64,000 nucleotides of DNA from Planctomycetota bacterium (GTDB lineage Bacteria > Planctomycetota > Phycisphaerae > Phycisphaerales > UBA1924): positions 1 through 64,000 of the forward strand of contig JBCBSM010000002.1 in the NCBI GenBank assembly GCA_039819165.1. The letters are read 5' to 3'. Every line of letters starts with the position of its first letter. The stretch's first letter is position 1. The position numbers and the translations under genes are program-made. The notes under the pieces were generated by a model that was not told the DNA's origin, made no database searches, and worked only from the letters and a program-made list of their open reading frames with translations. Shown in pieces: positions 19,385 through 38,807 of the stretch.

Positions 19385-19456
19385 GCGGGTGTAGTTCAGT
19401 GGTAGAACGTCAGCTTCCCAAGCTGAATGTCGCCGGTTCGACTCCGGTCACCCGCT
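19385..19456 (+). tRNA. tRNA-Gly (anticodon CCC)
   Basis: 72 nt. The acceptor GCGGGTG pairs with CACCCGC at 19449-19455, discriminator T. D-arm TAGTTCAGTGGTAGAA, anticodon stem TCAGC/GCTGA with loop TTCCCAA giving anticodon CCC, and T-loop TTCGACT are all in place. The CCA end is not encoded. It marks the left border of the accessory region. Confidence 0.95.
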
Positions 19457-21629: not shown

Positions 21630-24170
21630 CTATTGGGGTTTCGAGGCCCAGCTGTCCGAGAGCGTACTGTCGCCGAGTTCGGCAAAGTGCTCGGCGAGAC
21701 GACGGGCCACGCGACTCGCCAGCGCGGAATCCGATCGGCCTGCATCCGACAGAAGCCGATGTGACGCGCCGAGCACCTCGACGCCCTTCGCAGAGAGTTC
21801 GGTCGTAAGCAGAGGCAGGCCGACGGAGACTCTGTACTCGGCGCGCTTCTGGATCGGCAAGCTCGTAGCCGCATCGACTTCGGCCACGATCGCGTCGACA
21901 ACTCTGGCCGCTTCTTCTGTCTTCCCTGCACGAAGCAAGATCGCGGGCAGCTGCGTCCGCCAGCCGAGCCACTTCCCCTCGGACACCGAGGCCCTAAGTT
22001 CTTCGTGTTCCAGGACGCCCTGCGCTTCGGCTATTGCACGGTCATGCTCGCCGCTCTGGCTGAGCGCCGTCGCGAACAACATGGTTGCAAACGCAACTTC
22101 CGGATGACTCGAGCCGAGCGAATCGCGGGCGACAACCAGCCGAGGTTCGAGTACTTCTACGGCCTCCGTTGGCCGGCCATCTGAGATGAGAGCGATAGCA
22201 AACCCGATGGCCGACTGGAGCAATCCTGCATGCTCCGGCGCAAGCGTATCCAGCGAGATTGCGTACGCCTCCGCGGAAGCCTCGGACGCCTCCGCCGTCT
22301 CGCCAACAGCCGCGAGTGATCGCGAGAGGCTGCGGAGCGCGAAGGCGAGTGCGCTGGGGGCGGCATCGCCTTCTCGCAACTCGACGACATTTTGCCTTTG
22401 CTGCTCGATCGCCGCTCGATAGTCGCCGCGAATCAGGAATAGATTGGCTCGCAATGTGCTCGCCCGCGAACGAAGTGTTAGACTCTGTTCGGCAGCTTGA
22501 CTCGCGAGCACCTCCTCTATCGTTGCAAGTGCACGGTCCGCATCACCCTGGGACATCTGGGTCTGTGCCAGCATGAACGAGATCCGTGCCCACAGCATCC
22601 TGGCTTGGTTCGTATTCACGGACGCAGCGGCGGCCTGGCCAAGGTCGAGCACGGTTCGGGCGCGTTCGTAGTCGGCGGTCGCGAAGATCGGTTCGCCGAT
22701 CGCAAGGGCCGCGTTGGCCCTTCCTGCAGGATCGATGGGAGCGGCGGAGTCAAACTCGGTCGCCACGTGGGCAAGAAGCTCGCGAAGCGTGGCATCCGGA
22801 CCCAGACGCTCCGCCCGGACTTCGTTGAGGACCTGCCGGAGATAGTCGGTCGTCGCGGAAGCCGTGCGCTCCGATGCGCGCGCATTGTCGCGCTCCCGGG
22901 CAGCATGCACAAACGCGGCGGTCGAGAATGCGGTTGCGGCGATGAGGGCGGCGGCGACTAGCGAGCCGGCGGCCGCTACGACCCGGTGACGACGCAAGAA
23001 TTTTCTGAATCGATACGAGCGACTGGGCATCCGGGCGGACACGGCTGCTCCATCGAGGTATCGACCAAGATCATCGACAAAGTCCTGGACCGAGCGATAT
23101 CGACGTTCGCAGTTCTTCTCGAGAGACTTGAGCATGATGCTCGACAGGTCACGGTCGACCGCGGAGTTCGCTCTGTTTGCCTCGCGCCTGGGCGCAGTAG
23201 GGCGGGGCGCGGCCTCGTCTCGGACAAATCGCTCGAGCTCGGCGGGGCTGAGGGTTGCAAGTTCATCGTGCCCAAATGGGACACGGCCGGTGACGAGCTC
23301 GTAGAGAACGACTCCGAGCGAGTAGACGTCCGATCGAACATCGACATCGCCCCCGCGTACAATCTGCTCCGGGCTCATGTACGCGAGCGTCCCGATGAGC
23401 TGGCCGGGCAACGAATAGGTGGTGATTACTGGATCATCGCCGGCATCGAGCAGCTTGGCAATGCCGAAGTCGATCACCTTGGGCCGCGGCCGACCGTCCT
23501 CCGGCGCAATCAGGATGTTGGAGGGCTTGATGTCGCGATGGATGAGTCCCCGGGAGTGGGCATACTGGATGGCGTTGGCCACATCGATGAAGAGTTCGAC
23601 ACGTTCCCTCGTTGAGATGGCATGCTCGCGCACATAGTCCGTAATTGGCGCACCATCCACGAGTTCCATGACGATGTACGGCGGCCCGTAGGGCTCGGCG
23701 CCGGCATCAAGGATCCGTGCGATCCCGCTATGCGAGAGTCGGGAGAGCGCCGCACGTTCTACATCGAAGCGATCGAGCAGCACCCTTGGGTTGAGCGTCG
23801 GACGCACGATCTTGATCGCGACGGTTCGTCGCACGGGCCCGTCCTGCCGCCCGCGGAGCACCCAGCCCATGCCGCCCTTGCCCAGGACACCTTCGATCGT
23901 ATACGGCCCGATCTTGCTGGGCAGGGCGAATGCGTCTGGCGGTGTGCCGGGCATCTGGCGTGCAGGGTTTATGCTGGTCGACGACTCCGTACCGATCTTC
24001 TCTTCGATTTCGATGAACTGCATGAGCCTGATCCGCAGGTCGTTCTGGGCTTCAAACGCATCGCGAACCCACACGCGGCGCTCGTGGGGCTCTCTGTCGA
24101 GCACCGCCTCCCACGCCGCCTTGAACTCATCCGATGTCGAAGGATCCACTTCACTTTTGGACATCTTCAT
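21630..24170 (-). CDS. Receptor-type Ser/Thr protein kinase with extracytoplasmic TPR-like repeats
   Basis: 846 residues from ATG 24170, which overlaps the sigma-factor stop (ATGA). The kinase domain spans about residues 87-375: GKGGMG (97-102), AIK with K120, HRDIKPSN (HRD at 211-213) and DFG (234-236), then YMSPEQ and a full C-lobe. A membrane segment follows at 398-420. The rest is helical with TPR-like repeats (AIGEPIFATADYERARTVLDLGQ, LFLIRGDYRAAIEQQRQNV, ATALSQSGEHDRAIAEAQGVLE). This is the standard planctomycete sensor kinase plan. Co-transcription with an ECF sigma factor suggests the kinase controls it. Confidence 0.92.
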   Translation of the reverse strand: MKMSKSEVDPSTSDEFKAAWEAVLDREPHERRVWVRDAFEAQNDLRIRLMQFIEIEEKIGTESSTSINPARQMPGTPPDAFALPSKIGPYTIEGVLGKGGMGWVLRGRQDGPVRRTVAIKIVRPTLNPRVLLDRFDVERAALSRLSHSGIARILDAGAEPYGPPYIVMELVDGAPITDYVREHAISTRERVELFIDVANAIQYAHSRGLIHRDIKPSNILIAPEDGRPRPKVIDFGIAKLLDAGDDPVITTYSLPGQLIGTLAYMSPEQIVRGGDVDVRSDVYSLGVVLYELVTGRVPFGHDELATLSPAELERFVRDEAAPRPTAPRREANRANSAVDRDLSSIMLKSLEKNCERRYRSVQDFVDDLGRYLDGAAVSARMPSRSYRFRKFLRRHRVVAAAGSLVAAALIAATAFSTAAFVHAARERDNARASERTASATTDYLRQVLNEVRAERLGPDATLRELLAHVATEFDSAAPIDPAGRANAALAIGEPIFATADYERARTVLDLGQAAAASVNTNQARMLWARISFMLAQTQMSQGDADRALATIEEVLASQAAEQSLTLRSRASTLRANLFLIRGDYRAAIEQQRQNVVELREGDAAPSALAFALRSLSRSLAAVGETAEASEASAEAYAISLDTLAPEHAGLLQSAIGFAIALISDGRPTEAVEVLEPRLVVARDSLGSSHPEVAFATMLFATALSQSGEHDRAIAEAQGVLEHEELRASVSEGKWLGWRTQLPAILLRAGKTEEAARVVDAIVAEVDAATSLPIQKRAEYRVSVGLPLLTTELSAKGVEVLGASHRLLSDAGRSDSALASRVARRLAEHFAELGDSTLSDSWASKPQ

Positions 24171-25013: not shown

Positions 25014-25622
25014 ATGGCACGGATCATCGTGGTGTACCACAGCGAGAACGGCCACACGCGGCTCGTCGCGGAGACGATCGTCCGGGCGATGCAAGAGTCG
25101 CTCGGCCCGAACGGCAGCGCTGAACTGGGAAACGCGGAGGATGCCGCGCTCCGCGTATCCGAGCTCGAGGCAGCCGACATGATCGTGTTCGGGACGCCGA
25201 CGTACATGGGCGGTCCCTCCGCGACGTTCAAGGCCTTTGCCGAGGCCACGAGCCGGACGTGGGTGCAGAGGCGATGGGTTGGCAAGCTCGCAGCCGGGTT
25301 CACGAACTCCGGCGGACTGCATGGAGACAAGCAGACGACACTCTTCTATTTGGTCACCCTGGCCGCCCAGCATGGAATGGTCTGGGTGCCACTCGTCGAA
25401 ATGGCTCCGGATCGCACGAACGACCACGGCGGAAAGCCGGATGATATCAACCGTGTCGGTGCGTCAATTGGCCTGATGACGCAGTCCGACCGAACGGCTC
25501 CTGGGCATGCACCATCGCCCGGTGACCTGGCTACGGCGTCCCGATTCGGGCACCACCTCGCCAAGACGGCGCTCCGCCTACTCGGAGGTGGGGCGCGGGG
25601 AGAACTCGTGTCCAGCAGTTGA
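25014..25622 (+). CDS. Flavodoxin-fold NAD(P)H:quinone oxidoreductase, WrbA-like
   Basis: 202 residues from ATG 25014 (AGAAGG just upstream). MARIIVVYHSENGHTRLVAETI carries the FMN phosphate loop SENGHT. DMIVFGTPTYMGGPSATFKAFAEATS and GFTNSGGLHGDKQTTLFYLVTLAAQHGMVWVPL are WrbA signatures for flavin and quinone binding. WrbA-type enzymes do two-electron reduction of quinones to avoid radical formation. It is the first gene of a long same-strand cluster with several hydrolases. A second protein of the same fold lies at 30106-30840. Confidence 0.85.
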   Translation: MARIIVVYHSENGHTRLVAETIVRAMQESLGPNGSAELGNAEDAALRVSELEAADMIVFGTPTYMGGPSATFKAFAEATSRTWVQRRWVGKLAAGFTNSGGLHGDKQTTLFYLVTLAAQHGMVWVPLVEMAPDRTNDHGGKPDDINRVGASIGLMTQSDRTAPGHAPSPGDLATASRFGHHLAKTALRLLGGGARGELVSSS

Positions 25623-25694
25623 AGCGGTACGTTGGCCCTCGATGCTCGCCGTCGCCGTACCCAATAAGTAAGTGCAGTAACGCAGGAGAATCCC

Positions 25695-26453
25695 ATGAAT
25701 CCGAAACAGGTCCTCATCGTCACGAGCGCTCTCGCCGCGTCCGCAGGTCTCTGGGCCGTGTCGATCGGGACCACGCCGGCGTATGCCAAGGGCACAACGG
25801 CTCGTGCCACACAGGTCCGGAATGACTCGGTGCTGCTCACTCCGGAGAATTCGACGCTGCTGCTGATCGACTTCCAGCCCCAGATGATCTTCGGGGTGCA
25901 CTCGCACGATCGGCAGATGCTGCGGAACAACGTCGAGGCCCTCGCGAAGTCCGCGAAGGTATTCGACGTGCCAACGGTTCTCACGACGGTCACGGCCGAG
26001 TCGTTCTCAGGGCCCATGATCCCGGAGCTGAAGGCCGTCTTCCCGTCCCACACGATCTACGACCGGACCAGCATGAACACCTGGGACGATGAGCGGGTCG
26101 TGGCCGAATTGGAGAGTACGGGCCGCAAGAAGCTCGTGATCGCTGCGCTCTGGACCGAGGTCTGTCTGACCATGCCGGCCATCGAGGCCTTGGTCGAGGG
26201 CTACGAGGTCTATATCGTGACCGACGCCTCAGGCGGCACGAGCAAAGAGGCGCACGACATGGCGGTGATGCGGATGGTCCAGGCCGGAGCCAAGCCGGTC
26301 ACCTGGCAGCAGGTGCTGCTGGAGTGGCAGCGAGACTGGGCGCACCAGGACACGTACGACGCCGTCACCGGCATCGCGCGCGAGCACTCCGGGGCCTACG
26401 GCGTGGGCATCGACTACGCCTACGGCATGTTCGGGGCCAAGGAAGGTCACTAG
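25695..26453 (+). CDS. Exported isochorismatase-family cysteine hydrolase (copy 1)
   Basis: 252 residues. Residues 1-31 form a signal peptide ending in TPAYA, unusual for this normally cytosolic family. The hydrolase core has LLLIDFQPQM (Asp59), GRKKLVIAALWTEVC (Lys146, Cys157), the Asp-Lys-Cys triad of YcaC/isochorismatase-like amidases. VTDASGGTSKEAHDMAVMRMVQAGAKPVTWQQVLLEW matches the YcaC-like subgroup. The natural substrate of that subgroup is unknown; a periplasmic amide or imide is possible. RBS GCAGGAG lies 8 bases before the start. It is one of three paralogues in this cluster. Confidence 0.88.
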   Translation: MNPKQVLIVTSALAASAGLWAVSIGTTPAYAKGTTARATQVRNDSVLLTPENSTLLLIDFQPQMIFGVHSHDRQMLRNNVEALAKSAKVFDVPTVLTTVTAESFSGPMIPELKAVFPSHTIYDRTSMNTWDDERVVAELESTGRKKLVIAALWTEVCLTMPAIEALVEGYEVYIVTDASGGTSKEAHDMAVMRMVQAGAKPVTWQQVLLEWQRDWAHQDTYDAVTGIAREHSGAYGVGIDYAYGMFGAKEGH

Positions 26454-26463
26454 CTGCAATCGG

Positions 26464-26490
26464 ACGCCGCGGGGTGATGCCCCGCGGTGT
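26464..26490 (+). terminator. Strong intergenic stem-loop between hydrolase 1 and amidohydrolase
   Basis: ACGCCGCGGGG (26464-26474) pairs with CCCCGCGGTGT (26480-26490), with one G-T pair, around loop TGATG. It starts 10 bp after the upstream stop and ends 28 bp before the next ATG. No T-run follows, so it may be a partial terminator or an mRNA-stabilising hairpin that sets the expression ratio inside the cluster. Confidence 0.5.
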
Positions 26491-26518
26491 CCATCCCGTT
26501 CGAGGTGCTGGAGCGCCC

Positions 26519-28297
26519 ATGTTTGCGACGCTGAGAATCCTGTTGGCCATCGGTCTCCTGGCGAGCGCGTACCTGTCCGAGTTTGCGATGGCTCAGCCTG
26601 CGGCGATGGTCGTCGTCAATGCCCGGGTCACCACCCAGAGCGATCTCGGAGAGGCCGAAGCGTTCGCGGTAGACGGCGGGTTGTTCACGATCGTCGGGGG
26701 CAATCGCGACGTCGAACCACTCATCGGACCGGACACGATCGTGATTGACGCCGGCTGGCGTCGCGTGATTCCCGGCCTTAACGATTCGCACATCCACGCG
26801 ACTCGGGGCGGACGGTTCTACAACGCGGAACTCCGCTGGGGCGGTGTACGGTCGCTTGCACGTGGCCTTGAGATGATCCGGCTCCAGGCGCTGCGAACGC
26901 CGGAAGACCAGTGGGTTCGCGTAGTCGGCGGCTGGTCCCCGTATCAGTTTGAGGAACGACGGCTGCCGACGCCTGCCGAACTTACTCGTGCGGCGCCACG
27001 CACACCCGTCTTCGTCCTGTTTCTCTACTCAAAGGGCTACCTGAACGCGGCAGGCGTCGAAGCTCTTGGTATCGACGAGCACACCGTGGTGCCAGAGGGT
27101 GGCAGGATCGAACTCACCGCGGACGGGGGCGCAATTCTGCACGCGGAGCCAAGCCCGGTCATCCTGTACCGGACGGTAGCGGCCTTGCCCAGCCTCTCGA
27201 TCGAGGATCAGGTAAACTCGACTCTGCACTTCTATCGCGAGTTGAACCGCTTCGGAGTCACGAGCGTCGTGGATCCGGGTGGAGGCGGCCACGTGTTTCC
27301 CGCCGACTACGCCGCGTCCCAGAAGCTCGCCGCAGACGGACGCCTGAACCTGCGAGTCGGCAACTATCTCTTCGCTGGAGATCCCGGGCGCGAACTCGAC
27401 CAGTACAGCGCGTGGAGCCGCCGGGAACGCGTCGGCATGAACCGGGCGGTCGACCTGCTCCGCGGGTTCACGACCAGCGGTGCCGGCGAGAACCTCACGG
27501 CCGCGGCCGCCGATTACGAGAACTTCATGGCGCCACGACCGGTGCTTGCCGGGGCCATGGAGGGCGAACTGGGAGCCGTCGTTTCCTTCCTGGTCGAGAG
27601 CCGATGGCCGATCCGGATCCATGCAACCTATGACGAGTCGATCGCACGAATTCTGGATGTGCTCGAGACGGCCGACCGCACGCACGGTCTGGATGGACTC
27701 CGAGTGGCAATCGACCATGGCGAGACGATGTCGGTCGAGAGCATCCGCCGCCTGGCGAAGCTCGGCGGCGGCGTGGCGATCCAGAACCGCATGGCGTTTG
27801 CCGGCGAGTTCTTCGCGGACCGATACGGCCCTGAGGCTGCGCGGTACGCTCCGCCGCTGCGAGCGCTCATCGATGCTGGCGTCCCGGTCGGTGCGGGCAC
27901 CGACGCGACACGCGTCTCGAATCACAACCCGTGGCTCAGTCTTGAGTGGTTGGTGACCGGACGCACGCTCGGCGGGCTGACCCTATTCGCAGACGACAAC
28001 CGCCTGACCCGTAGCGAGGCACTCCAGGCGTACACGATCGGAAGCGCGTGGTTCACCGGTGACCAGCAGGTTAAGGGTCGCATCGCGCCGGGCCAGTACG
28101 CAGACTTCGCGGTGCTCAGCGACGACTACTTCGCCGTTGACGAGGACGCCATTGGACACATCGAATCATTGCTGACGGTTGTCCAGGGTCGGCCCGCGTA
28201 CGCATCGGGCCGATATGCCGAAGCCGTGGATGTGCCGGCGCTTCCCCCAGTCACGCCCGCCTGGTCGCCCGTCCGCACATTCGGCGGGTTCCAATGA
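26519..28297 (+). CDS. Exported YtcJ-like amidohydrolase (Amidohydro_3)
   Basis: 592 residues from ATG 26519 (GGAG at 26510-26513). Residues 1-25 are a signal peptide ending AMA. The metal-dependent hydrolase core has VIPGLNDSHIHATRGG (H91, H93), GVTSVVDPGG, WPIRIHATYDESI, VAIDHGETM and VPVGAGTDATRVSNHNPWLSL, ending with GRIAPGQYADFAVLSDDYF. YtcJ-like enzymes cleave N-acyl amides and related C-N bonds with one or two metal ions. Export with hydrolase 1 suggests the first steps occur outside the cytoplasm. The substrate cannot be told from sequence. Confidence 0.88.
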   Translation: MFATLRILLAIGLLASAYLSEFAMAQPAAMVVVNARVTTQSDLGEAEAFAVDGGLFTIVGGNRDVEPLIGPDTIVIDAGWRRVIPGLNDSHIHATRGGRFYNAELRWGGVRSLARGLEMIRLQALRTPEDQWVRVVGGWSPYQFEERRLPTPAELTRAAPRTPVFVLFLYSKGYLNAAGVEALGIDEHTVVPEGGRIELTADGGAILHAEPSPVILYRTVAALPSLSIEDQVNSTLHFYRELNRFGVTSVVDPGGGGHVFPADYAASQKLAADGRLNLRVGNYLFAGDPGRELDQYSAWSRRERVGMNRAVDLLRGFTTSGAGENLTAAAADYENFMAPRPVLAGAMEGELGAVVSFLVESRWPIRIHATYDESIARILDVLETADRTHGLDGLRVAIDHGETMSVESIRRLAKLGGGVAIQNRMAFAGEFFADRYGPEAARYAPPLRALIDAGVPVGAGTDATRVSNHNPWLSLEWLVTGRTLGGLTLFADDNRLTRSEALQAYTIGSAWFTGDQQVKGRIAPGQYADFAVLSDDYFAVDEDAIGHIESLLTVVQGRPAYASGRYAEAVDVPALPPVTPAWSPVRTFGGFQ

Positions 28298-28356
28298 TGA
28301 ACCGTTGTGTCACTCACGAGTTGCCAGGCAAATCAGTTAACACGAAGAGGAACAAC

Positions 28357-28956
28357 ATGAAGAACGCATTCACCACTAAAGACGCCGCGATGCTGCTCAT
28401 CGATCACCAGCGGGGCACGATCAAGCTTGCCCAGAACATCGATCATCGCGAACTGGTCGCCAACACCCGCGCGCTCGCGCGAACGGCGGCCGAGACCGGC
28501 ATGCCGCTGGTTCTGACGTCGAGCCAAGAGGACCACTTCCAGGGACTACTACTCGATGACATCCAGCACATTGCACCCGAGGCTTACGAGGCTCGGATCA
28601 AGCGCCCCGGCGTGGTGGATGCATGGATGTACGAGCCGTTCAAGGGTGCGGTAGAGGCGACGGGCCGCAAGCGATTGATCATGGCGGGACTCACGAATGA
28701 CGTCTGCATCGTATATCCCGCCATCAGCGCCTTCGAGGAGGGCTACGACGTGCAGGTCGTCGTCGATGCCGGCGGCTCTCCGACGCAGGCCGCCGACACC
28801 GCCGCAATCGAGCGGATGCGGAACGCGGGCGTCACGATTACGTCGACGAACCAGGTCATGGCGGAGCTCGCGACCGACTGGTCGTCGGATGTGGGCCAGA
28901 CCATCCAGGGCATCATGTACGAAGAGAACCTCAAGCCGTTGGTCGAGACGCCCTAG
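28357..28956 (+). CDS. Isochorismatase-family cysteine hydrolase, YcaC-like (copy 2)
   Basis: 199 residues from ATG 28357, with AAGAGGA 6 bases upstream; an earlier in-frame ATG lacks support. The triad is D16 (MLLIDHQRG), K105 and C117 (GLTNDVCIVY). No signal peptide is present, so it is cytosolic, unlike copy 1. VVVDAGGSPTQAADTAAIERMRNAGVTITSTNQVMAEL is typical of the YcaC subgroup. It follows the amidohydrolase by 59 bp. Copies 2 and 3 share the start AMLLIDHQ-GT, closer to each other than to copy 1. Confidence 0.9.
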   Translation: MKNAFTTKDAAMLLIDHQRGTIKLAQNIDHRELVANTRALARTAAETGMPLVLTSSQEDHFQGLLLDDIQHIAPEAYEARIKRPGVVDAWMYEPFKGAVEATGRKRLIMAGLTNDVCIVYPAISAFEEGYDVQVVVDAGGSPTQAADTAAIERMRNAGVTITSTNQVMAELATDWSSDVGQTIQGIMYEENLKPLVETP

Positions 28957-29065
28957 CAGCCCGGAAGGCAACGCGATGTTCGCGACCAGCTCCGCCGCCC
29001 GGCCGCAGATGCTGCAACAGTCCAAATGCCGGCGGCGGCCACACGCGGCACGGGAGCACGAAGCC

Positions 29066-29956
29066 ATGCCAGTCTTCGCCGCCAGTGACCATCACGTCGT
29101 CGCTCTCGCCACCGGGGTGTCGTTGGGCTGCTCGATTCTTGGCTCGGGGCCACCGGTGCTGCTGTGGCACGGCTTTCTGGGCAACCGCGCGGCGTGGCGA
29201 CACGTTGCCTCGATGCTCCAGGACCGCTACACCGTGATCGTTCCCGACATGCGTGGCTACGGCAGTTCTTCACGACCGGCAACTGGGTACGACGGCCTCT
29301 CGCTGATGTCCGATTGTCGCGCACTCCTCCGGCACCTGGGCTACCGAGAGACGCACATCATCGCGCATGACATGGGGGCGGCACCGGCGCTGCTGTGGGC
29401 GGCGACGCACCCGGGCGAGGTGCTCTCGCTCTCGTATGTCGAGGAACCCTTGCTGACCTCGGACGTGGTCGGCACGCTCATTCGGATGACGCCCGAAGAG
29501 GCCCGCAACGGCGGACTGTGGTGGTGGATGCTTGCGTATGCAAGCGACATGGCCGAGCGGCTCATTTCGGGTCACGAGCGAGCGTTCGTCGATTGGTTCT
29601 ACGACTCCTACGCCGCCGCTCCGGATCGCATAGACAATGAAGCGCGAGAGTGCTACGCCAGCGATCTCATGCAACCAGGCGGCATACGAGGCTGGTTCGG
29701 CGTGTACCGCGCCGTCTTCGAGACGATTCGCCAGACCGAGAGCGCCCTCCGGGTCCCGGTGGAGACCCCGATTCTCGCACTCGGCGGCGAGCATTCTCTG
29801 GGCAGTCGCGTTGGGGACATGCTCCGTCCGATCGGCCGCGATGTCGAGGTGGGCGTGATTCCCGGATCGGGCCACTTTGTGCCCGAAGAGAAGCCGCACG
29901 AGCTATGCCGCAGGTGGCTGGAATTCGTCCAGCGGCACCAGATGGAGATTGCATAG
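29066..29956 (+). CDS. Alpha/beta hydrolase, epoxide hydrolase/haloalkanoate dehalogenase-like
   Basis: 296 residues from ATG 29066 (GGGAG upstream); ATG 28976 with GGAAGG upstream is an alternative that adds 30 basic residues. LLWHGFLGNRAAWRHV is the oxyanion HG region, DMRGYGSSSRP follows, and the nucleophile elbow is IIAHDMGAAPAL with Asp102, the aspartyl type used by epoxide hydrolases and dehalogenases. VIPGSGHFVPEEKP gives the catalytic His. A tryptophan-rich cap (GLWWWMLAYASDM) lies between. It probably opens an epoxide or removes halide; which is not determined. Confidence 0.86.
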   Translation: MPVFAASDHHVVALATGVSLGCSILGSGPPVLLWHGFLGNRAAWRHVASMLQDRYTVIVPDMRGYGSSSRPATGYDGLSLMSDCRALLRHLGYRETHIIAHDMGAAPALLWAATHPGEVLSLSYVEEPLLTSDVVGTLIRMTPEEARNGGLWWWMLAYASDMAERLISGHERAFVDWFYDSYAAAPDRIDNEARECYASDLMQPGGIRGWFGVYRAVFETIRQTESALRVPVETPILALGGEHSLGSRVGDMLRPIGRDVEVGVIPGSGHFVPEEKPHELCRRWLEFVQRHQMEIA

Positions 29957-30105
29957 ACGCGAGTACATCGGCCAGCAGCACTCGTACGGGGATCGCGACG
30001 CGACGAGGATCGATGGATCGACGCCCCGGCCACGCACGACACGGTGTGCCGGCAGTGCGGCATCCAGATGAATCGTGGCAGCGCCCCGCTAGCAGGAGTC
30101 CGACG

Positions 30106-30840
30106 ATGATCAATGGCCAGAGCTGCAAGGTGCTGCTCGTCTTCACGACCGAGACAAATTCGACGCGTCAGATGGCGGACGCGGTTGCCGAGGGTGTGCG
30201 GTCCGTCCCAGGGTCAACCTGCGAGGTCGTGTGCCTCGAGCGGGGCACGGAGGTCCAGGCGTCGGACGTGCCCGTGTACGACGCGCTCATACTCGGCACT
30301 CCGGTCCGACATCGGACGATGCACCATCGAGTGAAGCGATTCATCGAGAGCACCCTTGAGACCCTCTGGCTCCGTGATGAGACCGTCGGTATGGTCGGCG
30401 GAGTATTCTGCGTTGGCGGGGGCCACGGGGACACCGGAGCGGGAGCCGAGTTGTGCCTGCTCGGCATGCTCTCCGCGATGGCCGCCAACGGGATGATCCC
30501 GGCGCCCCTTCCAAAGTGCACGCCCGGATTCGATCACGCCGGGAACCACTGGGGACCGGTCGGGAGATCGGGGGGGGCGAAGATGCAGCCGCTGTGGCTG
30601 AGTGCCGACATGCTGGCGTGCGCGACGACGCACGGATCGAACATCGCACGGCTCGCTCGGGTCCTCAAGCCGCACCGCCCAAGCCTGTTCCAGAGGGGGA
30701 ACGTGGCCCCAACGCCCGAGCTCGCCGAGGCATTTTCGATGGGCGCGGGCGGCGAGCACGCGGGCGTGCCAGAACCGGGCGCGAACGTTGCCCATCGTGT
30801 GGAGCCGCCCCACGGGTTCCCGTCCGGGCCGAGCGATTGA
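30106..30840 (+). CDS. Flavodoxin-fold oxidoreductase, WrbA-like (second copy)
   Basis: 244 residues from ATG 30106 with CAGGAG 8 bases upstream. KVLLVFTTETNSTRQMADAV carries a phosphate loop, but with TTETNST instead of the usual S-x-x-G-x-T. DALILGTPVRHRTMHHRVKRFIEST and GVFCVGGGHGDTGAGAELCLLGMLSAMAANGMI correspond to the flavin and quinone sites. The C-terminal ~60 residues (QRGNVAPTPELAEAFSMGAGGEHA) extend past the family's usual 200. It is more diverged than the copy at 25014-25622, so FMN binding should be regarded as probable, not shown. Confidence 0.75.
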   Translation: MINGQSCKVLLVFTTETNSTRQMADAVAEGVRSVPGSTCEVVCLERGTEVQASDVPVYDALILGTPVRHRTMHHRVKRFIESTLETLWLRDETVGMVGGVFCVGGGHGDTGAGAELCLLGMLSAMAANGMIPAPLPKCTPGFDHAGNHWGPVGRSGGAKMQPLWLSADMLACATTHGSNIARLARVLKPHRPSLFQRGNVAPTPELAEAFSMGAGGEHAGVPEPGANVAHRVEPPHGFPSGPSD

Positions 30841-30902
30841 TAGCGCTCGCGTGCCAGCCGCCGGGCCGCAGCACGGCCGATGATCCTCGTCCCATCCAGC
30901 AC

Positions 30903-32369
30903 ATGGCACCCATGCACAGGCACTCGCTCGCTCACGGAGATGCACGCGGCGCGCATCGCACGGGTCCTCGTTCGGCGGCCTGCAGCGCGCTCATGGTGCT
31001 CACAGCGTGCGCCGCTCGTGGCCATGCGCAGCAGGAAGGCCGCCAATCTGCCTACAGGCTTCCGCCGGTGCAGATGCTTCGCTGGGCGGAGGACTACACG
31101 ACGCTCCTGGATCAACCCCTGCGAGGCATCGATCGACTCAAGTACATACCGCTCGATCCGGCGGGACGCAGCCATCTCTCGCTTGGCGGATCCATCCGAG
31201 AGCAGTTCGAGTTCTACAACAACCGAGACTTTGGATTCGCCGAGGCAGACGATGATGCGTTCTTGCTGCACCGGCTCATGGTGCATGCCGATCTCCACGT
31301 GGATGACGGCGTGCGGGTGTTCGCTGAACTCGGCAATACGCGAGCCATCGGCCTCGGCGAGGAGCCGCCACCGCTCGACGAGAACAGGCTCTTCCTCCAC
31401 CAAGGATTCATCGATCTTGCGGTCGTAGATGGTCTCGATGGCATGCCCGGCCTCGATCTGCGGGTCGGTCGGCAGGAAATGCCGCTTGGCTCCGCCCGGC
31501 TGATCTCGCTCCGGGACGGGCCGAACAACCGCCTGAGCTTCGACGCTGCGCGGGCAACGGTCTCCGGAGAGAACTGGGCAACGGACGTCTTCGCTGCGAC
31601 GCCCGTCGACCTGCAGTCGGGCGTGTTCGACGACCAGATCAACGACGAGACCCTGCTGTGGGGCGCGTACGGCACGCTGCACGAGATCCAAGAGCACACG
31701 AGCGTTGATCTGTACTACATCGGGATCCATCGCGATGAGCGGCGATTCGGGAACGCCTTCGGCGACGAGGTCCGCCATTCGGTTGGTACCAGGATCTTCG
31801 GGCACACGAATGGCTTCGATTTCAATACGGAGTTGGTGTACCAGTTCGGCTCCATTGGCTCCGCCGATATTGCCGCTGGCACGATCGCGAACGACTTCGG
31901 CTATACGTGGGCGTCGGCGCCATGGGCGCCGCGGGTCGGCATCCGGCTGGACTACAGCAGCGGCGCTCGCGGCGCCGGTTCGACGACCGAGACGTTCGAC
32001 CCGCTGTTCCCCAAGAACAACTACTTCAGCGAGGCCGCCGTCATCTTCCCCGCCAACATCATCGACGTGAATCCGAACGTCACGGTCTACCCGACGGAGC
32101 ATCTCGCCATCGAGATCATGTGGGACTTTCTCTGGAGGGCTTCGCCGGATGACGCGGTGTACATACCGCCGGGACGCCCCCTCTTCGCGCCGACGCTCTC
32201 GGATGGCCGCTTCATCGGCAACAGCCTCTCCCTCCTTGCCGAGTACCACCTCGCCCGGGGAACGAGCGTTAACGCGGCCTTCACGTTCTTCGATGCCGGC
32301 AACGCCGTTCGAGACGCCGGCGGCGAGGACATCGTCTATGCGGCCGCCTGGGTGGAGTTCAAGTTCTAG
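30903..32369 (+). CDS. Outer-membrane alginate-export-family porin
   Basis: 488 residues from ATG 30903 (ATG 30912 also in frame). The N-terminal signal ends near RGHAQ. The rest shows alternating beta-strand segments with turns: LSLGGSIREQFEFYNNRDFGF, FLLHRLMVHADLHVDDGVRVFAELGNTRAIG, LDLRVGRQEMPLGSARLISLRDGPNNRLSFD, and the C-terminal aromatic ending AAWVEFKF required for barrel assembly. This is the alginate_exp (AlgE-like) pattern. It would let the substrate of the adjacent exported hydrolases enter the periplasm. No alginate lyase or synthesis genes are near. Confidence 0.85.
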   Translation: MAPMHRHSLAHGDARGAHRTGPRSAACSALMVLTACAARGHAQQEGRQSAYRLPPVQMLRWAEDYTTLLDQPLRGIDRLKYIPLDPAGRSHLSLGGSIREQFEFYNNRDFGFAEADDDAFLLHRLMVHADLHVDDGVRVFAELGNTRAIGLGEEPPPLDENRLFLHQGFIDLAVVDGLDGMPGLDLRVGRQEMPLGSARLISLRDGPNNRLSFDAARATVSGENWATDVFAATPVDLQSGVFDDQINDETLLWGAYGTLHEIQEHTSVDLYYIGIHRDERRFGNAFGDEVRHSVGTRIFGHTNGFDFNTELVYQFGSIGSADIAAGTIANDFGYTWASAPWAPRVGIRLDYSSGARGAGSTTETFDPLFPKNNYFSEAAVIFPANIIDVNPNVTVYPTEHLAIEIMWDFLWRASPDDAVYIPPGRPLFAPTLSDGRFIGNSLSLLAEYHLARGTSVNAAFTFFDAGNAVRDAGGEDIVYAAAWVEFKF

Positions 32370-32765
32370 GGACGTCCTGCACACGTCCGCCACCTCGGCC
32401 GTGAGCAGCCGCCGTGACGCAACCGCGTGGGTATGCCCGCCATGGACCACGACGCCTCGGGAGTGGACGCGGAGTGCCCCGCGCGACGAGAAGGCCGCGG
32501 ACCCGAGGGGGATCCTCCCGGGCGTGGAATCCGCGTCCGTCCAGGATTCGTGCCGGATGTGGCGGATCCAGAAGGGACACGTCGGCTCTTTCGGGCGACT
32601 CCTCCGCCGCCCCAGGAGCAGCGGATCGTCCGTTATCCAGAATCTGCGTCAGACGCATCGAAGCCCTGTCCGCAACTCGGGGTGATCGTCGTGATCTGCA
32701 TGGCGACCTGGCATCGCACGCGCAGGCTCGCCACGCAGGCCACGCCGATCTATTGAGGGAGTCTC
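32370..32765 (+). other. Intergenic region with leader-like features, no supportable gene
   Basis: 396 bp between the porin and aldehyde dehydrogenase genes. A weak hairpin GGACGT/ACGTCC (32370-32375/32383-32388) follows the porin stop. Open frames here lack ribosome sites and family motifs. GAGGGA at 32756-32761 serves the next gene. A promoter for the right half of the cluster may lie here, but no clear -35/-10 pair is seen. Confidence 0.45.
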
Positions 32766-34283
32766 ATGATGACCGTAGTAGCGCACCCGGAACACGCCGT
32801 TGGGCCCGCGGGGGCCTTTCTCAGGAAGACGCACCGACTCTTGATCGACGGCAACTGGGTCGATGCACGGTCTGGCGAGACGTTCGAGACCATCAACCCA
32901 GCAACCGAAGGCGTCCTGGCCTCGGTCGCCCTCGGGGATGCGGCCGACATCGATGCCGCGGTTGCCGCCGCTCGCAGGGCTTTCGATGACGGCCCCTGGC
33001 CGCGCATGACTCCCGCAGAGCGCCAGCGCATCCTGCAGCGACTCGGCGATCTCATCGAACAACACGGCGAGGAGCTTGCCTGGATCGAGAGCCTGGACAA
33101 TGGCAAGCCGGTAAGCGTCGCTCGGGTGGCCGACATTCCGCTCACCGCCGACCTGTTCCACTACATGGCGGCGCACGCCCGAACGCGGGAGGGGCACGTC
33201 GTGCCGACGTCGGACTTCGCCGTTCCGGGGGCCGATTTCCACGCATACACATTAGAGGAGCCCGTCGGCGTAGTCGGTTTGGTGACGCCGTGGAACTACC
33301 CACTCCTGATCGCGGCCGGCTGGCAGATGGCCGGTGCGCTAGCCGCGGGCAACACCATCGTCCTCAAGCCCTCGGAGGTGACTCCGCTGTCGATCATCCG
33401 TTTCGGTGAGCTTGCGCTGGAGGCGGGCGTGCCGCCGGGGGTGATCAACATCGTCCAGGGCTACGGCGCCGGTGCCGGGGCTCGATTGGTTGAGCATCCG
33501 CAGGTCGACAAGATCGGATTCACGGGATCTACCAGGACGGGCCGGGGGCTGTTGAAGTCTGTCGCCGACTCGAACCTCAAGAAGGTCACGCTCGAGCTGG
33601 GTGGGAAGTCGCCGGACATCATCTTCGCGGACGCGGATATCGACGCCGCGATTGCAGGCGTGTCCATGGGCGTGTTCTTCAACCAGGGAGAGTGCTGCTG
33701 TGCCGGCACGCGCATCTTCGTGGAAGACAAGGTATACGACCGGGTCGTCGCCGGGATGGTGGAAGAGGCGCGGAAGATCCGTCTCGGGTCGGGGCAGGAG
33801 CCGGAGACGGACATGGGTCCGGTCGTGTCGCAGCGGCAACTCGACACGGTCATGGGCTACATCGACGCCGGAAGGAACGATGGTGCGACCATTGCGGTCG
33901 GCGGTGCCCGCGTCGGCGACCAGGGGTACTTCGTAGAACCGACCCTGTTCACCGATGTCGATCCCGGCATGTCGATCGTCCGCGAGGAAATATTCGGACC
34001 CGTCGCATCCATCGAGCGGTTCTCCGACGTGGACGACGTGATCCGGCGTGCCAACGACACGGAGTACGGGCTCGGTGCCGGGGTCTGGACCACCGATGTC
34101 GCCAAGACGCACCGCGTCGCGCGTGCGATCCGCGCCGGGACGGTGTTCACGAACTGCTACAACGTCTTCGATGCGGCCATGCCGTTCGGAGGCTACAAGC
34201 AGTCTGGGTGGGGCCGCAACCGCGGGCGGCAGGCGTTCGAGGCGTTCACCGAGACCAAGGCGGTCTACGTGAAGCTCAACTGA
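32766..34283 (+). CDS. NAD(P)-dependent aldehyde dehydrogenase (betaine-aldehyde/phenylacetaldehyde DH-like)
   Basis: 505 residues. Classic ALDH motifs: VTPWNYPLL, KPSEVTP (Lys201), GFTGSTRTGR (cofactor loop), LELGGKSPDIIF with the general base E277, and NQGECCCAGTR with the catalytic Cys as the middle residue (C311). EEIFGPVASIERF and AMPFGGYKQSGWGR complete the fold. The enzyme oxidises an aldehyde to an acid in the cytoplasm; the ECCCAG variant is seen in class 1/2 and betaine-type enzymes. In this cluster it could finish breakdown of an aldehyde from the hydrolases. Length is normal for the family. Confidence 0.93.
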   Translation: MMTVVAHPEHAVGPAGAFLRKTHRLLIDGNWVDARSGETFETINPATEGVLASVALGDAADIDAAVAAARRAFDDGPWPRMTPAERQRILQRLGDLIEQHGEELAWIESLDNGKPVSVARVADIPLTADLFHYMAAHARTREGHVVPTSDFAVPGADFHAYTLEEPVGVVGLVTPWNYPLLIAAGWQMAGALAAGNTIVLKPSEVTPLSIIRFGELALEAGVPPGVINIVQGYGAGAGARLVEHPQVDKIGFTGSTRTGRGLLKSVADSNLKKVTLELGGKSPDIIFADADIDAAIAGVSMGVFFNQGECCCAGTRIFVEDKVYDRVVAGMVEEARKIRLGSGQEPETDMGPVVSQRQLDTVMGYIDAGRNDGATIAVGGARVGDQGYFVEPTLFTDVDPGMSIVREEIFGPVASIERFSDVDDVIRRANDTEYGLGAGVWTTDVAKTHRVARAIRAGTVFTNCYNVFDAAMPFGGYKQSGWGRNRGRQAFEAFTETKAVYVKLN

Positions 34284-34488
34284 CGGATGCTCGGTCCGGA
34301 CGCCGGTCTTCGGTGCTGCCAGCACATCGCCCATCCTGCCAGTGGATGATCTATGGGCGCGAGCCAAGGCCATACCCGAAACCGATGTGCAGGGCCTCCT
34401 CCGCCTGACGCCCCCGCAGCACACGTGCACCGCCGCCGGAGAGTTCGGCGTTGCACTCCGAACCACCACAGACGCAAGGAAGTCCACG

Positions 34489-35127
34489 ATGAACGAATCG
34501 CTCCGTAAACGCCTCACCGCCGACAATTCGGCGATGCTCCTCATCGACCACCAGACAGGCACCATGCTCGGAGTCCAGGACATCCGCCTGGATCAGTTCC
34601 GCAGCAACGTCCTCGCACTCGCCAAGACGGCGCAGGTGCATGGGATGCCCGTCGTGCTCACGGCCAGCTACGCCGAGGGGCCAAACGGTCCGCTCATGCC
34701 TGAGTTAGTCGAGATGTTTCCCGACGCCCCCACGGTGTACCGCCCGGGCCCCATCAGCGCGTGGGACGATCCGAATTTCGTAGCGGCCGTCGAAGCGACC
34801 AATCGCAAGAAGCTCATCATGGCGGGTGTCACGACGGACGTCTGCCTGATGTTCCCGGTGCTCCAGGCACTCGATGCCGGATACGACGTACACGCCGTGT
34901 ATGACGCATCGGGGTGCTGGGACCAGATGAGCGAGACGATGGCGTGCATGCGGATGGCCCAGGCCGGCGCCGTCGTGTGCAACTGGGCCGCGGTATGTGC
35001 CGATCTCCAATCCGACTGGCGCAATCCCACGGCCGAGGGAACGCTCGGCGTCTTCGGCGACCATCTCCCCTTCTACGGCATGCTTGCCAACAACCTGGCG
35101 AGCGCCCAGGGAGCACCGTCGGCATGA
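34489..35127 (+). CDS. Isochorismatase-family cysteine hydrolase, YcaC-like (copy 3)
   Basis: 212 residues from ATG 34489 with AAGGA 8 bases upstream. Triad residues are D20 (AMLLIDHQTGT), K107 or K108 (NRKKLIMAG) and C119 (VTTDVCLMF). VYDASGCWDQMSETMACMRMAQAGAVVCNWAAVCADLQSDW matches the same subgroup as copies 1 and 2. It has no signal peptide. Its stop overlaps the ATG of the YciI-like lipoprotein gene, so the two are coupled. Three paralogues within 9 kb suggest sequential or overlapping substrate use. Confidence 0.9.
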   Translation: MNESLRKRLTADNSAMLLIDHQTGTMLGVQDIRLDQFRSNVLALAKTAQVHGMPVVLTASYAEGPNGPLMPELVEMFPDAPTVYRPGPISAWDDPNFVAAVEATNRKKLIMAGVTTDVCLMFPVLQALDAGYDVHAVYDASGCWDQMSETMACMRMAQAGAVVCNWAAVCADLQSDWRNPTAEGTLGVFGDHLPFYGMLANNLASAQGAPSA

Positions 35128-35660
35128 TCGCTTCGCCCATGCCCCGCGTCCTTGTCGCCCTCACGGCCGCCGCATGCTGGGCGGCCTCATCGCTGCTCCT
35201 GGGAGGCTGCGCCGCTGGTCGCCACTACGAGGCCCCGCCGGCGGACGAGGTTCTGCGCACAACCACGAGCATGGAGCGTCCCGGCATCCCCTCGGGTCTC
35301 ATCAAGCGGGACGTCGGGGAATCGCTGGGACTCCAGCTCTACGTCGTGGAGTCGCGTGCCGTCGATCTCGAACACGTCAAGCGGGTCCTTGCCGACCACA
35401 GGGCCTACCTGCGTGAGCTCGAGAGGACCGACGTGCTCTTCGCGGCCGGCCCAACGTGGTCGGCGGATGGCGATACCTTCCATGGCGACGGGATCATCGT
35501 GCTGCGGGCGAACTCGCCCGCCCATGCGGCCAGGATCGCCGAAGAGGATCCCATGCACGATCGCGGCGCACGAGCGTATTCGATCACGCCCTGGATGCTC
35601 AATGACGGCGCGCTGACCCTCCGAGTGGAGTTGTCCACACGGCACCGCGAAGTTCGGTGA
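35124..35660 (+). CDS. Lipoprotein with YciI-like domain
   Basis: 178 residues from ATG 35124, overlapping the previous stop (ATGA). Residues 1-30 are a lipoprotein signal with lipobox LLGGC. From residue ~72 the chain reads LQLYVVESRAVDLEHVKRVLADHRAYLRELERTDVLFAAGP, GDGIIVLRANSPAHAARIAEEDPMHDRGARAYSITPWMLNDG, the YciI dimeric alpha-beta barrel pattern with a conserved His and Asp. YciI proteins are usually cytosolic small enzymes or accessory domains; a membrane-anchored periplasmic form is unusual. Role in the cluster is unknown. Confidence 0.8.
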   Translation: MIASPMPRVLVALTAAACWAASSLLLGGCAAGRHYEAPPADEVLRTTTSMERPGIPSGLIKRDVGESLGLQLYVVESRAVDLEHVKRVLADHRAYLRELERTDVLFAAGPTWSADGDTFHGDGIIVLRANSPAHAARIAEEDPMHDRGARAYSITPWMLNDGALTLRVELSTRHREVR

Positions 35661-35694
35661 AACGCCACCGGCACTTCTGTCCAAGCAGCACGAC

Positions 35695-36462
35695 CTACCG
35701 ACTCGTGCCCCTGAGACGTCGACGCCCGCTCAGCGTTCCTCGATCCGTGTAGGGCGCAGCGAGGTCGTAGACGAAGCACACGATCTCGGCGTCCGAGTGT
35801 GCCAAGATCTCGCCCTCGGATTCCCCCGGGCTCGCGAGCGAGTCGCCCTCGCCGATTCGCATCCCGTCGATCTCAACCTCGCCGGAAAACACGTAGATCC
35901 ACCAGCCACAACCCGTCCTCGCCGGCACGTGCCGGCGATCGCCCGTGCCGAGACGCGTGTCGTACAGATCCACGGCGCTGCGCACGTAGATCGCAGCTCC
36001 GGTTCCCTCGGCTCCGACGAGAAGCCGCCACTCGGCGTCCGGCACCACCGGGTCGACGTCGCCGAACTGGACTCCTGGCTCGAGACCAAGCGCACGGGGG
36101 CGCACGAAGATCTGGAGCATCCGAACTCTGGCGGCCTCGGCAGGCACGGATTCTTCGTGGGACAAGCCCGACCCCGCGTTCATGACCATGAGACGCCCCG
36201 GCGAGAGCTCGACGTTCCGGCCTGAGCTATCCGTGTGCATCATCACGCCCGACCGGAGATACGAGATGATCTCGTCGTCCTTGTGCTCGTGCATCGGGAC
36301 GCGGAGGCCCACGAGGAGATCGCCGTGGTCTACGGCTCCAATTGGGCCTAGACCCGAATCCGCGGCGACACCGCGCCCGGGATAGGAACGCCATATCCGG
36401 AACGGGCCGTCCGCATAGGCCATTCGCTCGGACGCCCTTTGCAAGACTAGCGCCACGTTCAT
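35695..36462 (-). CDS. Pirin-family protein
   Basis: 255 residues from ATG 36462 (AAGGA directly upstream). The N-terminal cupin shows MHEHKDDEIISYLRSGVMMHTDSSG with metal ligands His-x-His...Glu, then GRLMVMNAGSGLSHEESVP, the pirin signature with the second His. The second half (IYVFSGEVEIDGMRIGEGDSLASPGESEGEILAHSDAEIVCFVYDL) is a second cupin without metal ligands. Some pirins are quercetin dioxygenases or redox sensors. It is convergent to the hydrolase cluster, with 34 bp to the lipoprotein stop. Confidence 0.9.
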   Translation of the reverse strand: MNVALVLQRASERMAYADGPFRIWRSYPGRGVAADSGLGPIGAVDHGDLLVGLRVPMHEHKDDEIISYLRSGVMMHTDSSGRNVELSPGRLMVMNAGSGLSHEESVPAEAARVRMLQIFVRPRALGLEPGVQFGDVDPVVPDAEWRLLVGAEGTGAAIYVRSAVDLYDTRLGTGDRRHVPARTGCGWWIYVFSGEVEIDGMRIGEGDSLASPGESEGEILAHSDAEIVCFVYDLAAPYTDRGTLSGRRRLRGTSR

Positions 36463-36811: not shown

Positions 36812-36979
36812 ATGGCCAGGAAGCGTCATTCGGCTGAGGAGATCGTGAACAAGCTTCGGCAGGCGGAGGTCGAGTCCTGGCGTTGGCATTACAATGCGGA
36901 GCGACCACACAGCGCCTTGAGAAGCCTGGCCCCTGAGGAGTTCGCTGCTTCATCCGGCCAGGCATGCCTGGCCGGATGA
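36812..36979 (+). pseudogene. IS3-family transposase remnant (OrfA head fused to OrfB tail)
   Basis: 55 codons. Residues 1-20 (MARKRHSAEEIVNKLRQAEV) are the start of a typical IS3-family OrfA. They run without a break into SWRWHYNAERPHSALRSLAPEEFAA, the C-terminal end of the OrfB integrase (the Y-N-x-x-R-P-H motif). About 1 kb that should lie between, including the DDE catalytic core, is deleted in frame. The remnant ends inside a 40-bp perfect palindrome. It cannot transpose. It marks past mobile-element activity at the right side of the accessory region. Confidence 0.85.
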
Positions 36980-37326: not shown

Positions 37327-38235
37327 TCAGCCTCCGCCACCATCCTCGGGATCCCACACTCGGCCGGATCGTTCCGGTGCTCTATGGGCATCCAAGTAAT
37401 CCGTTCGGTGAATAGCTTCAAATCTAGATTCAAATATTTCGTGCTTTAATAGGTCGATATCCCGAGGCCCAGACGCTCCTTCCTGCAGACGCTGCCATGC
37501 ATTAGCAATCTTAGGATGTGCATCGAATCGCTTGATCACTTGTTCTCCGTTCTGATATCGAATCACGTGATCAGCATGGAATAAGCGATGCTCGATGCGA
37601 CGCACACGTTCTTCTGACATGCCACTGCTCTTTGCGATTGCAGTGATGTCAGAACCCTCTCGTCGAATTGTATCATAGTACTCCTCGGCACGCTTGTGGT
37701 TATCACGAGCAATTCGACCGTATGATCCACCCGAAGCCACCATCTCAGCAAAGATGTTGTCCCAGCAGTTTCGCGCTGTCCTTCCAGCTCTTGCCGCACT
37801 TGGCAGGTGTCGAACCAGATACGCACCGCCCGCGACAGCGACTCCGATTTCGTCGGGTAGCGGCGTCACGAGACTTGCACCGAGAGCCAGCCCAGCCTGC
37901 GCAACCTCTCCCGTCGTTTCGAGCCCCTGCCGAACCCCCTCCATGCCACGCATGTGCTCCCGGTGCCGATCCTGCATGGCGGTCACGGCATCCGGCCCGC
38001 CCTGGGGGCCGGCATCACCGCCCATCATCGCACGATGCTGTTCCCGTGCTTGCCGGTCTTTTTGCGCCTGGATGGCCGGGTGTGGCTGGGTACTTGCCGC
38101 TCGTGTTTCGGCTGCTTCTGTGCCGCCAAACAAGAAGCCAAACACACTAAAGCCAGACGACTTGCTGCCTCCATCCTCATCGTCCGGATCCAGCCCCCAC
38201 GGATCGAGGTAGACCAGCGGGCTCCACGGGCCGTT
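37327..38235 (-). pseudogene. Orphan Rhs C-terminal tip with toxin-like domain
   Basis: The frame reads NGPWSPLVYLDPWGLDP at its start, the end of an Rhs/YD-repeat core (DPxGL motif), then a linker and a variable C-terminal domain. No YD repeats precede it: an in-frame stop lies at 38335-38337 and unrelated sequence follows. A GTG at 38145 is the first possible start. The tip has a hydrophobic helix, then GSYGRIARDNHKRAEEYYDTI, DITAIAKSSGMSEERVRRIEHRLF, FDAHPKIANAWQRLQ and DIDLLKHEIFESRFE. That last pattern resembles a domain found in polymorphic toxins and phage head proteins, activity unknown. Its 3' half is AT-richer than the neighbours. It is probably a displaced toxin cassette. Confidence 0.65.
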
Positions 38236-38568: not shown

Positions 38569-38720
38569 GTGCGTGGCCGAGGCGTGCGCCGCGGAGAACG
38601 CAGCGGAACTCAGTCCGAGGCTCGAAATCGCCCGATCTGGGAACTCATCTGGAACTCAGGGGTGCCAAGTCGCCGCAGAACCGCCCTCACGGGCTCTCAG
38701 ACGGGCATTTCTCGACCAAG

Positions 38721-38807
38721 CGGAGAGGGGGGGATTCGAACCCCCGATGACCCGAAGGCCATACCGGATTTCGAATCCGGCGCATTCAACCGCTCTGCCA
38801 CCTCTCC
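38721..38807 (-). tRNA. tRNA-Ser (anticodon CGA)
   Basis: 87 nt class II tRNA. On the minus strand the acceptor GGAGAGG pairs with CCTCTCC, discriminator G. Anticodon stem CCGGA/TCCGG encloses loop TTCGAAA, anticodon CGA. The long variable arm (TGGCCTTCGGGTCA region) and T-loop TTCGAAT are present. CCA is not encoded. It lies next to the Rhs/IS scar and forms the right border of the accessory region. Confidence 0.95.

Follow-up and report, generated by a model that had tools for sequence, protein, structure and literature searches.

Which compound could bring together three YcaC-like cysteine hydrolases, a YtcJ-like metal-dependent amidohydrolase, an outer-membrane porin and several redox enzymes? 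The question is raised by a gene cluster at positions 25014-36462 of a 64,000-nucleotide stretch (the window) of a 3.14-Mb assembly of a Phycisphaerales bacterium (Planctomycetota; GCA_039819165.1). An earlier note, made from the DNA letters alone, had described ten same-strand genes and a convergent pirin as a coherent set for the uptake and stepwise cleavage of an amide- or epoxide-containing compound. All eleven genes were found at the claimed place, between the start of a WrbA-like gene (25014) and the start of the minus-strand pirin gene (36462). Our results indicate that the YcaC-like and YtcJ-like genes are a real and widespread module, around which the outer members vary. We propose, with a probability of about 40%, that the window holds a probably acquired island with a variant of this module, devoted to the regulated cleavage of a small quinone-forming aromatic amide or ester. 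Cleavage would begin outside the cytoplasm, and the remaining enzymes would manage the quinone-type products.

A widespread gene pair

Relatives were collected in two directions. Named genomes, scanned with an alignment of the exported YcaC-like protein, gave at least 80 loci. Of the 80 loci listed, 46 contain YtcJ and 40 a LysR regulator; an alpha/beta hydrolase occurs in 36 of them and XapX in 33. Less common are a major facilitator superfamily (MFS) pump (25 loci), a kinase domain (20), pirin and porin (9 each) and DoxX (6). YtcJ density around the listed YcaC-type genes is 9.8 per 100 kb in the first 3 kb, drops to 0.4 between 3 and 6 kb and reaches 0.0 between 6 and 10 kb. Since these loci had been selected by the YcaC-like gene, a YtcJ-led search was run too, in 392 genomes that the search classed as belonging to the window's phylum. 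Matches at E 1e-40 or better were obtained in 27 genomes: the window's own gene, 18 close relatives (loci extended to at most 20 kb), a contig-edge fragment that was not used and seven distant paralogues.

A YcaC-like gene lies beside 16 of the 18 close YtcJ genes of the phylum, with a gap of at most 1.6 kb; pirin is found in 10 of these 18 loci and porin in 5. The two loci lacking a YcaC-like gene are a 5.2-kb contig (L138) and one in which YtcJ runs into the contig end (L141). YcaC-like, pirin and porin genes are absent from all seven loci of the distant paralogues, some of which also lie on short contigs. The background number of pirin genes is 1-4 per genome in the 18 genomes. Scattered genes or chance were rejected for the core on these grounds, that is, the 16/18 against 0/7 and the low pirin background. 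In the pooled set of 106 loci, mostly YcaC-led, 68 of 73 YtcJ open reading frames (ORFs) have a YcaC-like ORF in their locus, and for 60 of the 73 it lies within 1 kb (39 on the same strand, 21 on the opposite one). The two best non-self matches of the porin in the 392 genomes (G422 and G180) likewise lie at most 4 kb from YtcJ genes.

The coherence proposed in the earlier note thus stands for YcaC-like, YtcJ, pirin and porin genes, which co-occur in relatives, and does not extend to the outer members. Scattering in relatives, which that note had named as the outcome that would overturn it, clearly fails to describe these four genes. It had also known no described pathway of such composition. 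We found no paper on the combination in open-access full texts, which omit most subscription journals; the YcaC-YtcJ module is apparently undescribed, though each enzyme family is known.

Catalytic sites and predicted export

The Asp-Arg-Cys site is intact in all three YcaC-like copies of the window, and its residues are conserved in 110/110 aligned YcaC-like sequences, these three included. In YcaC of Pseudomonas aeruginosa the site is described as D19, R84 and a nucleophilic C118 (PMC4519933). The window copies share sequence family and site with YcaC of Escherichia coli and P. aeruginosa. They differ in that one is predicted to be exported and in that all three stay under the NCBIfam equivalog cut-off (NF041461; 157, 151 and 236 bits versus 310), and canonical YcaC identity was rejected for that reason. 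Canonical WrbA identity was rejected likewise, as both flavodoxin-type copies fall below the WrbA equivalog cut-off (NF002999; 72 and 58 bits versus 141). As no copy reaches these cut-offs, "YcaC-like" and "WrbA-like" hold at superfamily level only.

Tandem copies are also seen elsewhere. In Paenibacillus sp. V4I3 (L054, 9983-12388) three YcaC-like genes stand in tandem beside YtcJ, a Bacillota triplet in which two of the genes have near-identical signal peptides. A segment of about 7 kb in Pseudomonas taiwanensis (L035, 9869-16887) carries a YcaC-like gene, an ABM-domain protein, YtcJ, LysR, pirin and two further YcaC-like genes.

The YtcJ-like protein is a clear member of PF07969 (327.7 bits against a cut-off of 29.7). 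H92, H94, E325, H369, H401 and D463, numbered in the translation of 26516-28297, are invariant in 19/19 aligned sequences and are putative metal ligands. In its predicted model (mean pLDDT 89) the fold is closest to 3igh and 3icj, two uncharacterised metal-dependent hydrolases of Pyrococcus, followed by adenosine deaminase, triazine hydrolases and imidazolonepropionases. With neighbours so mixed, no substrate can be read from the fold. A preprint on secreted bile salt hydrolases (PMC13081902) describes YtcJ-type (PF07969) enzymes that are exported and hydrolyse amides. These share with the window protein the Pfam family, metal dependence and export. They are said there to have 945 residues and an extra C-terminal domain, in contrast to the 592 residues of the window protein, and the clades may differ. 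Many YtcJ relatives (L033, L042, L045, L065, L074, L079, L092, L097, L103, L054, L055 and others) bear a Cys/His-rich C-terminal tail, consisting of an HxHxH-like stretch and then FWGxxGCxCFAF or variants. The tail is similar in form in Pseudomonadota and Bacillota, and the window copy is without it.

Export was called by a rule-of-thumb scan for Sec-type signals. It flagged the first YcaC-like protein and YtcJ in the window, the two hydrolases for which export had been claimed. Overall, 10 of 102 YcaC-like ORFs were flagged, belonging to the window's phylum or to Microbulbifer, Bacillus or Paenibacillus. Among YtcJ ORFs the number was 9 of 61, and six loci had both partners flagged: the window, L017, L024, L043, L125 and L126. 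The YcaC-like proteins of L022 and L124 also look exported by eye. With so few flags, export would be a trait of some lineages and not of the whole YcaC-like or YtcJ family.

Cif-type epoxide hydrolases combine an Asp nucleophile with a His/Tyr pair that opens the ring. The best solved relative of the window's alpha/beta hydrolase is Cif-like 1, and the positions of the Asp nucleophile, Glu and Tyr align between them, so the Asp nucleophile of the earlier note is indeed kept. The window protein differs in having Trp where Cif-like 1 and its relative carry His, and no export signal was seen in it by eye. Since Trp stands at the Cif-type His position, an epoxide step by this enzyme is unproven and may be proposed only weakly from the aligned residues.

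Quinone-related partners in relatives

A dioxygenase/MhqD-like component was observed in 5 of the 106 pooled loci: in the congener G002, in three Bacillota loci and in Rubrimonas. It directly adjoins YtcJ in G002; in each of the three Bacillota loci its distance to the YcaC-like gene is at most 8.2 kb. Curated models were applied to L017, L054 and L103 only, and none of these reaches the MhqD cut-off (182.5 bits in L054 versus 325). The G002 cluster (L017) contains a flavodoxin-like gene, two YcaC-like genes, YtcJ, a glyoxalase/dioxygenase-family gene, an Abhydrolase_2 esterase, a porin and a small cupin-like protein that scores under its cut-off. Pirin is found in 19 of the pooled loci, DoxX in 17 and an ABM-domain protein in 15; nitroreductase is another quinone-chemistry partner in some relatives. 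The top-ranked plasmid YtcJ of Sulfitobacter sits with a tyrosinase, an alginate-type porin and a flavodoxin 63% identical to the second flavodoxin/WrbA-like protein of the window. Such partners in some relatives point to quinone-forming aromatics. The protection from quinone-type intermediates suggested in the earlier note is made likelier by the dioxygenase/MhqD-like, nitroreductase, DoxX or tyrosinase genes.

Gene content of the cluster

Twenty ORFs between 19.9 and 39.5 kb were scanned with Pfam, other small ORFs being outside the scan (Table 1). Three isochorismatase-family genes were found in the whole assembly, all of them inside the cluster. A gap of about 396 bases 5' of the aldehyde dehydrogenase (ALDH) gene allows for two transcripts. 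No CoA ligase or ring-cleavage gene was detected among the 20 scanned ORFs, nor any inner-membrane uptake system among those of the cluster block.

Table 1. Features of the cluster and its upstream region in window coordinates. Coordinates refer to trimmed starts; scores were obtained with longer ORFs. ECF, extracytoplasmic function.
Position	Strand	Feature	Evidence
21630-24164	-	Ser/Thr kinase-TPR protein, probable input to the cluster regulator	Pkinase 144.8 bits; TPR_12 35.6 bits
24167-24751	-	ECF sigma factor, divergent from cluster	Sigma70_ECF 117.5 bits
24795-24815		Perfect palindrome CTTGTAG-N7-CTACAAG, candidate operator or hairpin	Between sigma factor and WrbA-like gene
25014-25622	+	WrbA-like flavoprotein 1 (quinone reductase-like)	FMN_red 47 bits; WrbA model 72 bits, cut-off 141
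25695-26453	+	YcaC-like cysteine hydrolase 1, predicted exported	Isochorismatase 94.7 bits; D59, R124, C157; Sec-type signal by heuristic
26519-28297	+	YtcJ-like metal-dependent amidohydrolase, predicted exported	Amidohydro_3 327.7 bits, cut-off 29.7; Sec-type signal by heuristic
28357-28956	+	YcaC-like cysteine hydrolase 2, no export flag	Isochorismatase 81 bits; Asp-Arg-Cys; second in-frame start 28294
28976-29956	+	Alpha/beta hydrolase, kin of Cif-like epoxide hydrolases	Abhydrolase_1 89 bits; Cif-like 1, E 8e-40
30106-30840	+	Flavodoxin/WrbA-like protein 2	Flavodoxin_5 26.6 bits, just below cut-off 27; WrbA model 57.6 bits, cut-off 141
30903-32369	+	Outer-membrane alginate-export-type porin	Alginate_exp 265 bits
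32766-34283	+	Aldehyde dehydrogenase	Aldedh 583 bits; nearest NCBIfam model StyD phenylacetaldehyde dehydrogenase 552 bits, cut-off 850
34489-35127	+	YcaC-like cysteine hydrolase 3, no export flag	Isochorismatase 79.9 bits; YcaC model 235.8 bits, cut-off 310; Asp-Arg-Cys
35124-35660	+	YciI-like putative lipoprotein	YCII 41 bits; lipobox-like LLLGGC near N terminus
35695-36462	-	Pirin/quercetinase-like protein, convergent	Pirin 62.6 bits; Pirin_C_2 37.6 bits

An ECF sigma factor and a kinase accompany the cluster

The gene set reaches upstream of the cluster, where an ECF sigma factor gene and a Ser/Thr kinase-TPR gene are divergent from it. Such sigma factor-kinase regulation is in keeping with Phycisphaerales and Planctomycetota. 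We compared both proteins across seven genomes, the window's and those of six congeners. The top non-self match adjoins the G002 cluster in both cases, with 159 bits versus 104.5 for the next match of the sigma factor and, by a smaller margin, 341 versus 303.5 bits for the kinase. The G001 cluster (L022) is headed by another ECF sigma factor-kinase pair, whose kinase is not the closest relative of the window kinase. Consequently, all three clusters seen among these genomes (window, G002 and G001) have such a pair beside them; in the remaining four congeners a search with the exported YcaC-like protein found nothing at E 0.001. The association is observed, and from it we infer that the pair regulates the cluster.

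The palindrome between the sigma factor and the first WrbA-like gene is exact, with 0.02 occurrences expected in the window when up to 2 mismatches are allowed. It might head a regulon, a weak proposal because the exact form occurs nowhere else in the genome, approximate matches are no more frequent there than those of a reversed control, and the palindrome was not seen by eye in the intergenic stretches of G002 and G001. A promoter scan returned 0 sigma-70-like sites versus 1.5 expected by shuffling, a result too weak for use.

Origin of the island

The island is probably acquired, given its low G+C (65% versus 71% on both flanks) and its mosaic make-up. Among the matches listed, the best named one of the exported YcaC-like protein is from a Phycisphaerales (Planctomycetota) metagenome-assembled genome, with 71% identity; the top identity of the window copy, 82%, is with a sequence from another family. 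The window copy shares a group of the YcaC-like tree with three sequences of its phylum or of Planctomycetota (support 99/99), and within that group it is placed with congener G002 and L024 (98/90). The YtcJ tree puts the window among eight sequences (100/99), with Microbulbifer and a Sulfitobacter plasmid in the same group; G002 is found elsewhere, a provisional position given the long branches. The phylum label needs at least 5 changes in each tree. Inter-phylum exchange and a mosaic make-up would be the simplest reading of the trees, the details being unsure.

Bracketing tRNA genes are a usual setting for integrated islands, and tRNA-Gly (19385-19457) and tRNA-Ser (38720-38807) bracket the low-G+C region. 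No integrase was detected among the ORFs scanned. Just past the pirin gene, 36813-36979 holds a short transposase remnant (rve_3), by eye an internally deleted IS3-type gene. The minus-strand ORF at 37327-38145 had no Pfam match; by eye it resembles the C-terminal end of an RHS-type protein, with DPWGLDP upstream in frame. A look-up of the empty site placed the left and right flank genes on different contigs in those congeners that carry both.

Comparison with known systems

Loci of Pseudomonadota with the composition YcaC-XapX(DUF1427)-YtcJ-DoxX-MFS-alginate porin, such as those of Bosea Tri-49 and Sphingobium RAC03 plasmids, share the YcaC-like, YtcJ-like and porin genes with the window. The window cluster differs from them in its three YcaC-like genes (one predicted exported), two WrbA-like genes, ALDH and YciI, and in its ECF sigma factor-kinase pair, whereas LysR, AraC or two-component genes are found in the Pseudomonadota loci.

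The MhqR regulon of Bacillota, which gives resistance to quinones and methylhydroquinone, likewise mixes quinone reductases and hydrolases; its enzymes are described as acting on quinones (PMC6798810). The likeness extends to the three Bacillota YcaC-like loci with dioxygenase/MhqD-like genes, of which only L054 was checked with curated models. No MarR-type MhqR regulator was found among the 20 ORFs scanned in the window. Membership of the Mhq regulon was rejected, as the scanned ORFs hold no MarR regulator, ring-cleaving dioxygenase or MhqD-family esterase.

Proposed function and alternatives

We hypothesize that the ECF sigma factor, under control of the neighbouring Ser/Thr kinase, turns the cluster on. 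The outer-membrane barrel would then let in a small aromatic or phenolic compound, and the exported YtcJ-like and YcaC-like hydrolases, whose sites are intact, could cut an amide- or ester-like bond outside the cytoplasm. The other two YcaC-like enzymes, the alpha/beta hydrolase and ALDH would process the fragments in the cytosol. Judging from their families and from the partners seen in relatives, the two flavodoxin-type reductases, pirin and the YciI-like protein may keep quinone-type by-products reduced or remove them. Both detoxification and growth could be served. Detoxification or partial processing is somewhat likelier, because the 20 scanned ORFs hold neither a ring-cleavage nor a CoA-ligase gene.

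Several observations weigh against this proposal. No substrate or function was found here for the YtcJ clade of the window, and the structural work on YcaC reports solved structures but no known substrate (PMC4519933). Among the 80 listed YcaC-type loci, 34 have no YtcJ in the fetched flanks, ALDH is present in two and WrbA in one; YtcJ occurs in only 2 of the 17 Pseudomonas loci listed, though these are among the nearest by sequence. Each quinone-related partner is found in a minority of loci. In the four dioxygenase/MhqD-like loci other than G002 these genes are not adjacent to the YcaC-like gene but 1.3-8.2 kb away, and YtcJ is missing from one of the four, L029. XapX, DoxX and the MFS pump gave no tblastn match of their own in the window at E 1e-5, and neither a ring-cleaving dioxygenase (MhqA/E/O) nor the carboxylesterase MhqD was matched in the cluster. 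Export, finally, looks exceptional among both YcaC-like and YtcJ proteins.

The mixture of reductases, ALDH, Cif-like hydrolase, YciI and pirin could also make a general electrophile-stress island, with broad-specificity enzymes against quinones, aldehydes, epoxides and other reactive compounds and with no single substrate or ordered pathway. Composition does differ strongly between relatives while the core pair persists, and a stress response would fit well with sigma factor-kinase control. However, a porin and two predicted-exported hydrolases suggest a defined compound from outside, and the pair is very constant in the window's phylum; we regard a stress island as a serious but rather unlikely alternative. 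The true catabolic pathway of the earlier note, in which an amide- or epoxide-containing compound would be taken up and cut step by step, its products then supporting growth, seems to us unlikely. It would account for a porin, an exported amidohydrolase, ALDH and hydrolases in one block, and it can draw on PF07969 relatives described as hydrolysing amides (PMC13081902) and on the mhqPOD genes of a Paenibacillus, for which degradation of a lignin dimer has been proposed, although purified MhqO was reported inactive (PMC12673573). Against it, the scanned ORFs of the block include no gene for inner-membrane uptake, CoA ligation or ring cleavage, and Trp occupies the Cif-type His position.

Destruction of an N-acyl amide, or a similar signal or antimicrobial secreted by neighbours, would fit an amidohydrolase and a hydrolase that are predicted to be exported and a module that is spread across phyla. 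An insertion mutant in ytcJ of Pseudomonas putida JBC17 is reported to inhibit fungal spores more strongly and to swim more, and that gene may belong to another ytcJ clade (PMC8766522). The reductases, pirin and ALDH would have no obvious role in such a module, which we consider very improbable. We give equally little credit to the idea that unrelated stress genes gathered on one island by chance. The rare linkage of WrbA and ALDH to the pair elsewhere and the mosaic island would agree with it, but YcaC-like, YtcJ, pirin and porin genes co-occur far above controls, and the regulator is common to the window and G002. For the core pair, chance accretion is largely refuted.

In summary, regulated cleavage of a quinone-forming aromatic amide or ester is the reading that we prefer. 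Absent from the earlier note were the regulator genes (sigma factor and kinase), the probable acquisition of the island and the breadth of the core pair. It is tempting to go further and to see in the YcaC-like and YtcJ-like proteins a system of two hydrolases for the removal of one common quinone-forming natural product, with both enzymes exported in some lineages and with its own sigma factor and kinase in the window's genus. We hold this wider proposal to be doubtful. If it were true, identifying the compound would also tell what enzymes of the YcaC family do, a function long missing. With YcaC and YtcJ recurrently paired across several phyla, two orphan enzyme families can be studied as a single, testable problem, and their partners (pirin, dioxygenase/MhqD-like genes, tyrosinase and DoxX) direct that problem toward quinone-forming aromatics. 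Moreover, an ECF sigma factor and kinase that seem to travel with a metabolic island could provide a route to the targets of such regulators.

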